DNA from: Pseudomonadota bacterium
Lineage (GTDB): Bacteria > Pseudomonadota > Alphaproteobacteria > Sphingomonadales > SMXR01
Length of the DNA stretch: 64,000 bases
Direction: 5' to 3'
Assembly: GCA_022566895.1 (NCBI GenBank)
Contig: JADFIA010000005.1
Span: 1 to 64,000, forward strand
Shown: positions 20,645 through 47,388 of the stretch, in pieces
Numbering within the stretch: position 1 is the first letter of the stretch
How the letters are laid out: every line of letters begins with the position of its first letter
The notes under the pieces: model-generated
Databases searched by the model: none
What the model saw: the letters and a program-made list of their open reading frames with translations, nothing else
What the model was told of the DNA's origin: nothing
Made by a program: the position numbers and the translations under genes

Positions 20645-21184
20645 TTACTCCTTAAGCAGCCGTGCCCAGCCGGTAAGCGCCATTGCCATACCGAGGAAGG
20701 CGAAGGCCGGCCACAGATATTTGAAGCCCCCGATAACACGCAGATACTTATGAAAAATATTTCCGTATTCGGCAGTCAGGTAATGGTACAGGCCCATATG
20801 CATCTCAATGCTTATAAAAACGAATAAAACCCCATAAACCGAAAAACCGGCGATCAGATAAAGAAACCCGAACTGCATGTTCATGCGCTCAAGGAACCGA
20901 TAAAGCGGCACGCCGATCACGATCCCAGTCAGGACTGATGCGACATAGTTGACAACCATATATATGGCCGCAAAATTTACCAAAAAGTCATATTTTGATT
21001 GGAAAGCCAGGTTGACCGTTACCGCGGCCATCAGGGTCGGGATCGTAAAGAACAGAGTCCACAAGCTCAATGTGAGCGTCGGATCCAGAACCCGTGGGTT
21101 TGAAATTCTGGCATCGTCAAAGAACGCTTGGTTCCTCGCTACCTTGCGCCTTTCCTTCCTCGCCTTCATACTCCCCCTCCGCAC
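20645..21184 (-). CDS. Uncharacterised ~4-TM membrane protein embedded in pdh operon
   Basis: Clean ORF between pdhC and pdhB on the same strand; hydrophobic segments LSLWTLFFTIPTLMAAVTV, FAAIYMVVNYVASVLTGIVIGV, FLYLIAGFSVYGVLFVFI, YLWPAFAFLGMAMALTGW; basic N-terminus. Family not recognised. Confidence 0.8.
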   Translation of the reverse strand: MRRGSMKARKERRKVARNQAFFDDARISNPRVLDPTLTLSLWTLFFTIPTLMAAVTVNLAFQSKYDFLVNFAAIYMVVNYVASVLTGIVIGVPLYRFLERMNMQFGFLYLIAGFSVYGVLFVFISIEMHMGLYHYLTAEYGNIFHKYLRVIGGFKYLWPAFAFLGMAMALTGWARLLKE

Positions 21185-24357: not shown

Positions 24358-25671
<1,314 letters not shown>

Positions 25672-25774: not shown

Positions 25775-26212
25775 TTATTCGTTTTCGGGTTCTTCCGTGC
25801 TGGGCTCCAATTGCTGATTGACTGCGTCCTTTAACGCTTTTCCCGGCTTGAAACCGGGTACCTGTCTTGCGGGCCTCCTGATCAACTCGCCGGTCCGAGG
25901 ATTGCGCCCCATTGTCGCAGCGCGCTGGTACAGCTTGAAGGTGCCGAACCCCAGGATCTTAACTTGGCCGTCATTGGCCAGAGCAGCTGTTATGGAGTCA
26001 AATACAGCATCAACCGCCAGTTTGGCCTCTTCCTTGTTGCTTCCGGTAAGGCAGGAAATTTGGGCGATCAATTCCGTTTTATTCAGGCTTGTGCCGAAAC
26101 AATCCTCCTCCTCTGCGAGAGCGTCTGAATTGCTTCCCACAGCTAATAAAACAAATAAGGCCAGCAGCAGAAGTTCGAGAGGCTTAAACATTTTAATGTA
26201 AATTTCGCGCAT
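25775..26212 (-). CDS. HU/IHF-family DNA-binding domain protein with N-terminal signal peptide/TM segment
   Basis: MREIYIKMFKPLELLLLALFVLLAVGSNSDALA|EEEDCFGTSLNKTELIAQISCLTGSNKEEAKLAVDAVFDSITAALANDGQVKILGFGTFKLYQRAATMGRNPRTGELIRRPARQVPGFKPGKALKDAVN. HU signature GFGTF..RAAxxGRNPRTGE is intact. ATG at 26212 or 26191; the longer supplied ORF to 26776 overlaps pyrG and is not credible. Confidence 0.85.
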   Translation of the reverse strand: MREIYIKMFKPLELLLLALFVLLAVGSNSDALAEEEDCFGTSLNKTELIAQISCLTGSNKEEAKLAVDAVFDSITAALANDGQVKILGFGTFKLYQRAATMGRNPRTGELIRRPARQVPGFKPGKALKDAVNQQLEPSTEEPENE

Positions 26213-26280
26213 AGTTATGCACCTTCCGTTGTTACTTAGACAAGGAAGAATACATCTTAGGAGAGCGCAGAGGAAGAAAT

Positions 26281-27921
<1,641 letters not shown>

Positions 27922-38819: not shown

Positions 38820-40913
38820 TTAGCGGCCGTCCGTGGGTACCACCCACGGCCGAAGCCCGCGCGTATCGTTGGCGCCTTGTATCCTGATCTTGCCATTCTC
38901 TTCGAACCACAGGGCCAGCCCGCCGGCCTGGCGCACAAAGCGCCGGTCGATCACCAGCTGCGGGCCGCGGCAGTCGCGCGGCGCCCTTAAAGGGGTAATC
39001 AAGAGATCGGCTTGCCGGCAATCGAGGCGAAAGCCGTCAGGCTTCTGGGTCAGGGCCAGCACAGCGGGACCGCCACGCCGCCCCTTCGGCCAGTGATAGA
39101 TGCAACCTTCGGGCCGGCAGGCAAAGCGGCTTTCGCCGAGGCCTGGATCATGGGAGCGCTCCAAATCTCGAAAGCCCAAATAGTCCTGTTGCGCCATGGC
39201 CCGCTGCCAGGCTTGGCGGGAGAAGCGTTCGGCCCGGCCGCTGGAGAAATAATAGAGCCCGCTTTGCCAGTGGCGAATGGCCACCAGCCGTCCGTCCCGG
39301 CCGATCAGAAGATCCGGCGGTGTGGTATTCATCCAAATCAGGCCGGCGGCGACAAAAAGTAGCAGCGCGAGGCTGCGCAGCCGTTTATCCTGCCACAGGG
39401 CCAGCCACAAGCCGCCGAGAGCCAGGAGAGCCAGTGTGGCTTGCGGCATTTGCACCAGCTCGAGGGTTGAGTTTGGCACAGCCGAAATCTCGGCGGCGGT
39501 AGAGAGAATCACCTCGAGCCCGCCACCCATGACCTGCAAGGGAAGACCTTCGAGGCCGAAGGGCATCAGGAAAAGGGACAGCAGACCGGCCGGCATGACC
39601 CAAAAGCCCATGACCGGCATGGCCACCAGATTGGCCGGAATACCCAACAGCGCCATGCGGTTAAAATGGAAGACGGCGAAAGGCGCGATCGCCGCCTCGG
39701 CCACCAGGGTCGAAAGCACGATGCCCAGGAAATAAAGCCGCAGCGTGCCAAGGTGTCGCGATTCGCGGGCCCGCAGGCGCCACAAGAAAGGGCGCACCGC
39801 CTTGTAAACCGCAACCAGCGCCACCACGGCGGCAAAGGACATCTGAAAGCCGGGACTGAACAGCGCCTCCGGCTGCAGCATCAGAACCACCGTCGCAGCG
39901 ATCGCCACCAAACGCATCGAGATGGCCCGCCGGTCGAGGAGTACAGCCAGCAAGGCGATCGTGACCATGATAAAGGCGCGCTGGGTCGAGATCGCCATAC
40001 CGCTTAGGAATAAATATCCGAGCCCCACGAACCAGGCCGCAACGGCAGCCCATTTCCTGATCGCGTAGCGCGCTGCCAGCCGCGGAATGGCGGCTAAGAT
40101 TGCCCGGAACAGAAAAAAGCTGGTGCCCACAAACAGCGCCATGTGCAGCCCCGATATGGCCAAGAGATGAGCCAAGCCGGTGCGGCGCAGATTGTCCACG
40201 ATCTCTTTGGGGATGCCGCCGCGCAGGCCGGTCAGAAGGGCCGCCGCCACGGCTCCCTTGGGACCCTCGATGCTGGCCCGGATACGCGCCGTGACGTGAA
40301 GCCGCAGAGTTTCCAGCCTTTCGCTCCAACTCGGGGTCGCCGGGCGCTCGATAACCCTAACCTCGCCGACCGCAAAGCCGGAGCCGCCGATGCCTTGAAA
40401 CCACATCTGGCGGGCGAAATCATAACCGCCCGGAATGACCGGTCCCGATAACGGCAACAGGATCGCCCGGGTCGAGATAATAGCGCCCGGCAGCAGATGA
40501 TCGTGCCGTGTGCGTACGGTAATCCGCAGGCGCTCAGGTGTCTCCGCGGCTGCGAGCCGCGAAACCTCGAGCCGGTCAAGGGTGATCCGGATAGCCCCAT
40601 TTTGCCGCTCTTCGACCCGCACAAGCCGTCCGCTCAGCTTGGTCGGCCCCAGCTCTTGAAGAATCAACGGACCCTTGAACTGGGCCGAGCGGACGGTTGC
40701 AAAAGCCAAGCCCAGCACCAGGAGAAGCGCGACCTCGGTGACAAATCTCAAGCCCGGCTTGTTCTTGCACAGCGGCCACAGGGCAGCCGGGACGGCCGGG
40801 AATAGAATTACCATGGCTAGTGGCGGCTCAAACGGTAAAGCGAAATAGACCACAATCCCGGCCGCGAAGATCACAACCGCCCAATAGATGCGGGCCCGCA
40901 AGTCGTCACGCAT
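38820..40913 (-). CDS. comEC: ComEC/Rec2 family DNA-internalisation channel protein
   Basis: LRRTGLAHLLAISGLHMALFVG; SGMAISTQRAFIMVTIALLAVLLDRRAISMRLVA; multi-TM. ORF extends to 41078 but ATG at 40913 is plausible. Confidence 0.92.
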   Translation of the reverse strand: MRDDLRARIYWAVVIFAAGIVVYFALPFEPPLAMVILFPAVPAALWPLCKNKPGLRFVTEVALLLVLGLAFATVRSAQFKGPLILQELGPTKLSGRLVRVEERQNGAIRITLDRLEVSRLAAAETPERLRITVRTRHDHLLPGAIISTRAILLPLSGPVIPGGYDFARQMWFQGIGGSGFAVGEVRVIERPATPSWSERLETLRLHVTARIRASIEGPKGAVAAALLTGLRGGIPKEIVDNLRRTGLAHLLAISGLHMALFVGTSFFLFRAILAAIPRLAARYAIRKWAAVAAWFVGLGYLFLSGMAISTQRAFIMVTIALLAVLLDRRAISMRLVAIAATVVLMLQPEALFSPGFQMSFAAVVALVAVYKAVRPFLWRLRARESRHLGTLRLYFLGIVLSTLVAEAAIAPFAVFHFNRMALLGIPANLVAMPVMGFWVMPAGLLSLFLMPFGLEGLPLQVMGGGLEVILSTAAEISAVPNSTLELVQMPQATLALLALGGLWLALWQDKRLRSLALLLFVAAGLIWMNTTPPDLLIGRDGRLVAIRHWQSGLYYFSSGRAERFSRQAWQRAMAQQDYLGFRDLERSHDPGLGESRFACRPEGCIYHWPKGRRGGPAVLALTQKPDGFRLDCRQADLLITPLRAPRDCRGPQLVIDRRFVRQAGGLALWFEENGKIRIQGANDTRGLRPWVVPTDGR

Positions 40914-41091
40914 GGCGCTCAGCAGCGCCCGCAAGTAATCCCCGGCCCTGCCCCGGTGCCGGCTTAAGGCATTGAACTGCAATTGTTTGTCTCGGCCCAC
41001 TGTGTTACATACGCCATCAAATTTGACTGCTCCGACCAGGGCCAGCCATTTGCCCGGCCGGTCGGTTAGTGAAACCAATCATAAGAGCACA

Positions 41092-44464: not shown

Positions 44465-45037
44465 TTACATCGTCGCACCACTAATATCCGGGAACGCGGT
44501 CTTCAGTGTTGTGATTTGCGAATTCAAACGGTCGATAATCTCACTGGTCGCGTCAAGGGCACCGGTGAAGTGATAGACCACTGCTTTGTCGATGACTATG
44601 GTTGCCGACTTTTCAGTCATCAGTTGGACCACGATTGGCTTCAGGACCCGTTGAATTTCCAAGGTTGCCTGACGGGCCGCGACATTGAGATCACGCCGCA
44701 GCTGCTTGACCAGGGCCTCAGCCTGTTGGGCCTTTTGGTCGAGCTCGCGGGCCCTTTGTTGCAACGCTTCCTGGGCGATGATGTTCCTTTGTTTGTCGAG
44801 TTCATCTTTGTCCGCCAGGAGTTCCTGAACCAGATCGCCCTCTTTGGTTTCGATCGACAGACGCGATGAATTGATTTGTGATGCATAGTCCTGACCGACC
44901 AGCGATTCATTCTGCACCCGCTGGAAATCAACAATCATGAACTTGGCCTCTCCGATTTCCTGTTGCGCAATCACCTGGCCCGAAAGGCCAAACAACAGGC
45001 CAAAAGCCATCAGGATTCGCGTAAAGTACTTTGACAT
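44465..45037 (-). CDS. skp: OmpH/Skp family periplasmic chaperone
   Basis: Signal peptide MSKYFTRILMAFGLLFGLSGQVIAQ; coiled-coil-like RQRNIIAQEALQQRARELDQKAQQAEALVKQLRRDLN; directly downstream of bamA. Confidence 0.88.
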   Translation of the reverse strand: MSKYFTRILMAFGLLFGLSGQVIAQQEIGEAKFMIVDFQRVQNESLVGQDYASQINSSRLSIETKEGDLVQELLADKDELDKQRNIIAQEALQQRARELDQKAQQAEALVKQLRRDLNVAARQATLEIQRVLKPIVVQLMTEKSATIVIDKAVVYHFTGALDATSEIIDRLNSQITTLKTAFPDISGATM

Positions 45038-45048
45038 TGTCTTAACTC

Positions 45049-47388
45049 TCAAAATGTTGTTCCGATGTTAAACTGCAGGAACTGGGTCCTATCAGTTGGT
45101 TCCTTTCGTATGGCTTTGGCCAAGTCAATTCGGAAAGGCCCGAACGGTGATTGCCAGATCACACCTATCCCAACTGCAATACGGGGGCTTCCATTGCTGA
45201 TAACCAAAGAATTGTCAATGGGAAACCCTTGGAAATCGGTCTCCTCGAGGTCGAGTTTTGCCAACGCTCCGACATCGACAAAGGCCGTGATCTGGATCCC
45301 CAACTCTTCGGCTGCGGCCCCTAAGGGAATAGCCACGCCGGCGGTTGCGGCATAAAATGCGTTACCGCCCAGAAAGCTCCCGGTCAGGAGGTCGACCGGC
45401 CCGATGCCGGCGACATCGAAGCCGCGCATGCGCGGGTTTCCAAGGAAGAAGCGATTATTAATGCGGATATTTTCACCGATTCCCTTGATGTACCCCATGT
45501 CCGCTCCAAGATGGAAAATCCAGCGCCCGGTAATTGGCTTGTAATAATCGTATTGCAAGGTTGATCGCAGATAATTGACGTTGCCGCCGAGACCGGCGAA
45601 GTCTTGGCTCAGGCGGAAACTCGTGCCTCGGCTCGGGCGCAGGAAATTATCTACCGTATCGAAAAACAACGAATAACCGATCGCCGAGGTTGTCGTGACA
45701 CCGGGAAAAATAAAACGCGACGAAAAAAGCTCGATTTCTACGTCATCGCGCCGCAAGGTGTAACGCAGTCCGAGCTGAACCGTCTCGTCCAATCGAAACC
45801 CGGTTCGTAGCGCGCCGCCAGTCGAAGTCGTCTTGAAGGTGCTTTCCGTAAAATTGTCGACTTCAGTGCGAAACAAGTCGATCCCGGCCGCCAGTTCGCG
45901 ATTGAGAAAATAGGGTTCGGTAAATCCGATGTCGATCTGCTGGCGCCGGCTTGAGTAGAGGGCGCCAAGCCTCAATTGCTGGCCTTTTCCTAAGAGATTG
46001 CGTTCACTGATTGAGAATTCGAAAAGCAAGGATTCAAAGCTCGAAAAGGCCGCACCCAGCGACAACTCCCCGGTCGCCGTTTCCTCGACTGTGACATCTA
46101 TAATTACGCGGTCCGGTTGGCTGCCACGCTGTTGCTCAATCTCGACCGTGCGAAAAAAGCCGAGTGAATTGAGGCGGGTCTCGGACCGCTTGACGCGGGC
46201 TGAACTATAGGCGTCGCCTTCGGCCAGGCGAAACTCCCTACGGATCACGCGGTCGAGGGTTCGAACATTGCCGTGAATTTCGATCCGCTCAATATAGGTC
46301 CGCTGCGCTTCCTCGATCTTGAAGGTGACTTCGAGGATGCGCTGATCGCGGACCCTTCGGATCTGTGGGCTGACATCTAGAAAGGCATAGCCCAACAGGC
46401 CGCCAGCTTCGGTCATCAAGTCGACCGAATCTTCAATTTTCTTGGCGTTGTATATGCTGCCTTCCCTGGCCCGGATGAAGTTTCGGAATAATTCCGGTGA
46501 CAGGTCACGGACATCGCTATCGACGTCCAGTTTGCCAAACCGATAGCGCTCACCTTCGTGTACGGTAAAGGTGATAAAGAAGTCTCGTTGGTCTGGCGTC
46601 AGTTCGGCCACGGCCGATATCACCCGGAAGTCCGCATATCCTTTCGACAAATAAAACTGGCGCAGCAACTCGCGGTCGAACGCCTGGCGGTCCGGATCGT
46701 AGGTATCGTTCGAGCTGAAAATCTTCCACCATCGGGCTTCTGTAGTGACCAGCTCGCCACGCAGTTCACGATCGCTAAAGATCTTGTTGCCGAGAAAAGT
46801 GATCCGGCTGATGCGGCTCTTCGCGCCCTCAGTCATCTCGAAGACAAGATCGACCCGGTTCTGCTCCAAGAGAATGATTTTGGGTTCGACAACCGCAGCG
46901 AAACGGCCTGAGCGGCGGTACAGTTCAATGATCCGCTGGACATCTTCCCGCACCCGGGAGCGGGTGTAGACCATACGTGGTCGCAACTGGACTTCTTCCA
47001 AGAGGTCGTCGCGATCAAGGCGCTTATTGCCTTCAAAGACGATCCGGTTAATGACCGGGTTTTCCGTCAACCGGATTATCAGATTGTTGCCGTCGCGCTC
47101 CATGACCACGTCGGAAAACAGGCCGGTCGAAAATAGCGCCTTCAGGCTGGCGTCAATAAGCAGCGGGCTGAACGGATCGCCGGACCTGACCGTGAGATAG
47201 GACAAGATCGTGGCCGGCTCGACACGCTCGTTGCCGCTGACCAATATCTGATCGATCTTATCGGTCGGACTTTGGCCCTGCGCCTGAGCCTGAGCCGGGT
47301 TGTAACCGGCGCCTACGGCGAAACACAGGACAAGCGACAGTAACGCCGCGGCACCCCAGGTCCTGAATACAACAAATACCGTCTCCAA
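45049..47388 (-). CDS. bamA: Outer membrane protein assembly factor BamA
   Basis: Signal peptide; POTRA repeats (DQILVSGNERVEPATILSYLTVRSGD); GNPRMRGFDVAGIGP; C-terminal FRIDLAKAIRKEPTDRTQFLQFNIGTTF. Confidence 0.97.
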   Translation of the reverse strand: METVFVVFRTWGAAALLSLVLCFAVGAGYNPAQAQAQGQSPTDKIDQILVSGNERVEPATILSYLTVRSGDPFSPLLIDASLKALFSTGLFSDVVMERDGNNLIIRLTENPVINRIVFEGNKRLDRDDLLEEVQLRPRMVYTRSRVREDVQRIIELYRRSGRFAAVVEPKIILLEQNRVDLVFEMTEGAKSRISRITFLGNKIFSDRELRGELVTTEARWWKIFSSNDTYDPDRQAFDRELLRQFYLSKGYADFRVISAVAELTPDQRDFFITFTVHEGERYRFGKLDVDSDVRDLSPELFRNFIRAREGSIYNAKKIEDSVDLMTEAGGLLGYAFLDVSPQIRRVRDQRILEVTFKIEEAQRTYIERIEIHGNVRTLDRVIRREFRLAEGDAYSSARVKRSETRLNSLGFFRTVEIEQQRGSQPDRVIIDVTVEETATGELSLGAAFSSFESLLFEFSISERNLLGKGQQLRLGALYSSRRQQIDIGFTEPYFLNRELAAGIDLFRTEVDNFTESTFKTTSTGGALRTGFRLDETVQLGLRYTLRRDDVEIELFSSRFIFPGVTTTSAIGYSLFFDTVDNFLRPSRGTSFRLSQDFAGLGGNVNYLRSTLQYDYYKPITGRWIFHLGADMGYIKGIGENIRINNRFFLGNPRMRGFDVAGIGPVDLLTGSFLGGNAFYAATAGVAIPLGAAAEELGIQITAFVDVGALAKLDLEETDFQGFPIDNSLVISNGSPRIAVGIGVIWQSPFGPFRIDLAKAIRKEPTDRTQFLQFNIGTTF

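Follow-up and report, generated by a model that had tools for sequence, protein, structure and literature searches.

The window analyzed here, a stretch of 64,000 nucleotides, contains a gene for an HU-family protein that begins with a predicted Sec signal peptide. On sequence evidence, this HU variant is real, intact, and so far unique, and it carries a strong export signal. The reading we favor, with a probability of roughly 0.55, is that the protein is an HU paralogue exported by the Sec pathway that binds DNA outside the cytoplasm; its location, cleavage, DNA binding, and use are what we infer, as is its biological role. The features on which the argument rests are as follows (window coordinates unless a contig is given).

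25775..26212, minus strand: gene for the predicted exported HU-family protein, 145 aa, stop codon included (open frame, Shine-Dalgarno GGAAGG, PF00216 match with E 1.4e-28)
26222..26227, minus strand: Shine-Dalgarno-like GGAAGG (sequence and duplex energy of -7.0 kcal/mol)
26114..26212, minus strand: predicted Sec signal peptide, residues 1-33, SPase I-type site ALA-EEE (positive n-region, 15-residue hydrophobic core, AxA, hydropathy 2.98; AlphaFold helix 11-26)
26087..26113, minus strand: acidic linker EEEDCFGTS with Cys38, residues 34-42 (net charge -4)
25817..26086, minus strand: HU domain, residues 43-132, with Cys54 at HU position 12 (PF00216; pLDDT above 90 over most of the domain; Foldseek 5lvt_A)
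25778..25816, minus strand: acidic C-terminal tail QQLEPSTEEPENE, residues 133-145 (net charge -5)
26281..27912, minus strand: pyrG (CTP synthase), upstream neighbor, with homologues 76-80% identical in relatives
24358..25632, minus strand: eno (enolase), downstream neighbor
Contigs C72:6498-6767, C39:17329-17595, and C61:1556-1825 of the same genome (G000): leaderless HU paralogues L001, L002, and L003

The 145-residue minus-strand frame at 26212-25775 reported in an earlier note on this DNA was confirmed. The note had also described a signal peptide starting at the second methionine (MFKP...); the signal peptide stands, but the start does not, and the coordinates begin at MREIYIKMFKP.... Among the in-frame ATG and GTG codons, only the first ATG has a Shine-Dalgarno sequence, GGAAGG with a 9-nt spacer, whose duplex energy of -7.0 kcal/mol is reached by 5.7% of random windows and is comparable with that of eno (-7.3). 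Internal starts were rejected as the source of a leaderless product: Met8 (+0.1 kcal/mol) and the in-frame GTG at Val25 (+1.3 kcal/mol) have no Shine-Dalgarno sequence, and no ATG, GTG, or TTG between the leader and the HU domain is preceded by one. The canonical HU start corresponds to Leu43, which is encoded here by CTG; the duplex energy ahead of this codon is -5.6, with the purine run 17 nt off, and 20% of random windows are as low. Homologues that start downstream of the hydrophobic stretch, named in the note as evidence against export, do occur in that the paralogues begin at the equivalent of residue 43, but the exported HU gene has CTG at this position and offers no usable internal start. 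Because only the first ATG has a Shine-Dalgarno sequence and Leu43 is encoded by CTG, a leaderless product of this gene is unlikely.

By inspection and hydropathy, the leader and cleavage site (MREIYIKMFKPLELLLLALFVLLAVGSNSDALA, then EEE) are of the Sec/SPase I type. Residues 1-33 read MREIYIKMFKP-LELLLLALFVLLAVG-SNSDALA and are followed by EEED; the n-, h-, and c-regions and the AxA site are all present, as a positive start (R2, K7, and K10 ahead of the core, EEED behind it), a 15-residue core, and a polar end with ALA. Mean hydropathy of the core is 2.98 over 14 residues, the highest value in a set of 228 distinct HU/IHF domains whose upstream frames were scored (background for upstream frames having a start codon, 0.35 +/- 0.85); exported and membrane proteins of the same window (SecG, a BamA-like protein at 45049-47388, and an OmpH-like protein at 44465-45052) have hydropathies of 1.8-3.2. 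Hydropathy alone is no proof, because the next-highest value, 2.70, belongs to an upstream frame (at L246) that continues into the ATG of the L246 gene itself (MDDMAT). The AlphaFold model places residues 11-26 in a separate helix and has low confidence at residues 28-35. The proposal that this HU is exported or inserted into the membrane is thus backed by the predicted leader regions, the AxA site, the ribosome-binding site, and the lack of an alternative start. Since established Sec and SPase I rules fit the leader, export of the HU variant across the inner membrane is likely.

If the leader were left uncut, it would act as a signal anchor that fixes the HU domain to the inner membrane, on its outer face, as a DNA-holding receptor that perhaps helps DNA to reach ComEC. 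The long and very hydrophobic core (2.98), with its model helix at 11-26, is consistent with such an anchor, as are the presence of comEC and the absence of ComEA in the genome. We nevertheless consider it improbable, although it survives best among the alternatives: a clear AxA site lies at the right distance after the core, no PilQ-type secretin attains its cut-off, and ComEA is absent family-wide, so its absence predicts nothing special. The link to comEC suggested earlier is generic and weak, because comEC (38820-41078) is separated from the HU gene by 12.6 kb and lies outside the pyrG-HU-eno stretch, and ComEA of the HHH_3 type was found at cut-off in none of the eight genomes of the family f1 (G000-G007). 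Replacement of ComEA was rejected as specific evidence on the same ground, ComEA being absent from the whole family and not from this genome alone. No genetic link between the exported HU gene and competence genes was found. The type II secretion protein GspD is present (446.8 bits, curated cut-off 351) with a GspK-like frame beside it; therefore, a route for onward export exists. A second secretin in the genome fits no equivalog, and none reaches the PilQ cut-off.

The PF00216 match covers profile positions 1-90 of 90 over residues 43-132 (99.4 bits against a curated cut-off of 22.4). The NCBIfam models for HU-alpha, HU-beta, IhfA, and IhfB all match, none at its equivalog cut-off; IhfA scores best (82.4, cut-off 111), and HU-beta reaches 77.4 (cut-off 157). 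A Foldseek search with the AlphaFold model, which was built from 67 aligned sequences, found HU crystal structures (5lvt_A, E 3.7e-10, TM 0.90 on the target). The intact HU/IHF signature noted earlier, including the arm-tip proline, was recovered: the arm contains GRNPxTG, and the intercalating proline, Pro105, corresponds to HU Pro63. All invariant HU columns are retained, and so are the equivalents of HU Lys80, Lys83, and Lys86. The arm tip (55-67) is identical to that of the three cytoplasmic paralogues at 13/13 positions, compared with only 16-17/45 over residues 1-45. The arm tip is unchanged while the remainder has diverged; therefore, the DNA-contacting part of the variant seems, from this comparison, to be under constraint.

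Alone, the HU domain has a net charge of +6 and a pI of 9.9. The predicted mature chain has a net charge of -3 and a pI of 5.1 (10.3-11.3 in the leaderless paralogues), being acidic overall because both of its ends, the linker at -4 and the tail at -5, are acidic. An acidic mature protein could bind DNA more weakly, and the acidic tails could act as tuners of DNA binding. The acidity of the mature protein and its diverged body would also fit an exported protein that no longer binds DNA, in which the HU fold binds a different anionic partner, such as lipopolysaccharide or polysaccharide, or serves as an acid-tailed structural protein; surface HU-type proteins elsewhere are reported to contact surface polymers in work cited in PMC4103569. 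The retained arm tip and lysine equivalents argue for a DNA-binding protein instead, and we regard the loss of DNA binding as doubtful.

Two cysteines are present, as noted earlier: the linker contains Cys38, and Cys54 occupies HU position 12. The accompanying statement that HU proteins usually lack cysteine needs weakening, given that 24 of the 228 HU/IHF domains contain one; at position 12, cysteine occurs in the exported HU variant and in none of the others. A cysteine at HU position 27 (VDCVF) recurs in several alphaproteobacterial HUs (L106, L113, L127, L133, L134, and L058). A disulfide between Cys38 and Cys54 is possible but not supported, and the link is a weak one. No PF02600 match (DsbB) was found in the 86% complete genome.

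To survey other HUs for leaders, upstream frames were read for the 228 distinct HU/IHF domains, a set that spans relatives, class, phylum, and genomes with many HU copies, all within the Pseudomonadota. Since a leader cannot fit into frames under about 115 codons, loci whose frames are longer were deliberately included. The exported HU variant alone has a credible signal peptide in this set, and none was seen in 64 HUs from phage and plasmid loci. Whole-genome searches with the protein took in the genomes of 61 relatives, 385 of the class, 399 of the phylum, and 401 of the order, or about 1,200 once overlaps are removed. The gene itself scored 306 bits (290 in the last search, where the query was shorter); among the matches listed, any other scored at most about 101 bits, and the good matches covered the HU domain only. 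The search for signal-peptide HUs in related genomes that the earlier note proposed thus gave no leader-bearing orthologue among the matches listed. Beyond the Pseudomonadota, sampling was through phage and plasmid sequences and a single scan of GTDB genomes for a peptide pattern. The leader-bearing HU is so far a singleton, as judged from these searches, and comes from an incomplete draft assembly (2.15 Mb in 81 contigs); its lack of an orthologue counts against the favored reading.

Several candidates from the survey were rejected. An alignment at L255 ran into the leader, but the L255 protein begins with MNKQEL, and what matched ahead of it is upstream frame; plasmid matches with long upstream overlap (Dongshaea and Aeromonas) owe their overlaps to neighboring genes. 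A phage origin was set aside after phage and IMG/VR scans gave leaderless HUs only. The PHROG profile for phage HU (phrog_379) has about 27 positions ahead of the HU domain, a hint that some phage HUs have an extended N terminus. Some genomes (G445, G514, G571, and kin; families f194 and f202) carry up to 16 HU-family genes each, some as neighboring tandem pairs; no signal peptide was found in those of their HUs examined.

The genome has six HU/IHF genes, compared with mostly three in its relatives. The three leaderless HUs form one clade (support 100/99); relatives mostly have one such HU, and two of the three have short added tails, one of them Gly-rich. The arm sequence RAATMGRNPRTGE is common to the exported HU variant and the three leaderless HUs, and the arm motif AATMGRNP occurs in 5/83 HUs compared, four in this genome and the fifth in a distant Rhodoblastus HU. 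In the HU tree, the exported variant sits on a long branch with unsure placement. Duplication within the lineage, as part of a lineage-specific HU expansion, is favored but not proven as its source, because a tree constrained to join the four HUs has a log-likelihood 10.7 above that of the free search (p-AU 0.67). Horizontal transfer of the gene from elsewhere is less favored, since the constrained tree speaks for an origin among its genome-mates.

The gene is flanked by pyrG and eno, both also on the minus strand. In the relative G002, eno directly follows pyrG, about 27 bp apart with nothing between; no HU was found within 1.5 kb after pyrG in G001, G004, and G005, nor in the 0.6 kb after pyrG in G007. 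GC3 is 0.575 for the exported HU gene and 0.42 for its leader, compared with 0.72-0.79 for the neighbors. Searches around the gene gave no match to a promoter, a terminator, or an Rfam family, and no partner gene in the neighborhood hints at a role. Elsewhere in the window, a 179-residue ORF at 20645-21184 within the pyruvate dehydrogenase cluster has no Pfam match.

The long branch and low GC3 make it possible that the gene is young or decaying. Taken further, it would be a young duplicate whose leader arose by chance, one that is poorly expressed or being lost and has no exported function; its status as a singleton and the lack of a promoter match also point that way. Against this stand the intact 145-codon frame, the good ribosome-binding site, the unchanged arm tip, and a leader hydropathy above that of every other upstream frame tested, and we think a functionless duplicate quite unlikely. 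The suggestion that the protein anchors the nucleoid to the membrane, with its N terminus in the membrane and the HU domain in the cytoplasm, draws on HU being a nucleoid protein with one hydrophobic helix here, but it is very improbable, because the positive-inside rule (R2, K7, and K10 against EEED) gives N-in, HU-out even with the leader uncut, and a cleavage site is present.

The favored explanation, Sec export of a DNA-binding HU, can be stated as a series of steps. A copy from the lineage-specific expansion would have gained a cleavable Sec signal peptide, and the three leaderless HUs of the genome would remain for the normal job. The chain would be exported unfolded by Sec and cut after Ala33, and the mature protein would fold and dimerize in the periplasm and bind DNA through its unchanged HU arms. 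It may then remain in the periplasm, or it may pass out by way of the type II system encoded by the genome and bind DNA at the cell surface or the extracellular DNA of a biofilm matrix. A general extracytoplasmic DNA-binding role, with matrix DNA first, is preferred over DNA uptake because ComEA is absent from this genome and from all seven other members of the family. More tentatively, the protein may be a dedicated extracellular chromatin protein that organizes DNA outside the cell and is secreted for that purpose by way of Sec, with type II secretion perhaps taking part; the known extracellular HU and IHF, by contrast, are borrowed cytoplasmic proteins.

Compared with bacterial HU (HupB/HBsu, DNABII, PF00216), the exported variant shares the complete domain, fold, invariant columns, and arm tip but differs in its predicted signal peptide, acidic tails at both ends, acidic mature pI, and cysteine at position 12. 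No bacterial HU with a Sec signal peptide was found in open-licence papers. The Toxoplasma HU (TgHU) resides in the apicoplast (PMC10302316), a compartment whose proteins generally arrive by signal peptide and transit peptide; it belongs, however, to a eukaryotic organelle nucleoid and is not a case of bacterial export. ComEA, a periplasmic DNA receptor, would act alike if the exported HU served in DNA uptake, but its helix-hairpin-helix domain is unrelated and it was not found in this genome.

Anabaena asr3935, streptococcal HlpA, and mycobacterial histone-like proteins are likewise HU-type proteins outside the cytoplasm. The Anabaena HU was found on the surface and is listed among proteins without a signal peptide (PMC4103569), whereas the exported variant is predicted to have one. 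The HU and IHF of biofilm matrices, in Haemophilus and others, are the usual nucleoid proteins, set free when cells lyse or by way of type IV secretion remnants and pilus machinery (PMC8878592). Their route into the matrix is an open question, since such nucleoid proteins have no export signal. If our interpretation is true, a purpose-made DNA-binding HU for use outside the cytoplasm has evolved, and it offers a clean test, because its place outside would be by design and would owe nothing to lysis. Like the extracellular DNABII proteins of biofilms, the variant would be an HU-type protein that binds DNA outside the cell, but, unlike them, it appears to carry its own Sec signal.
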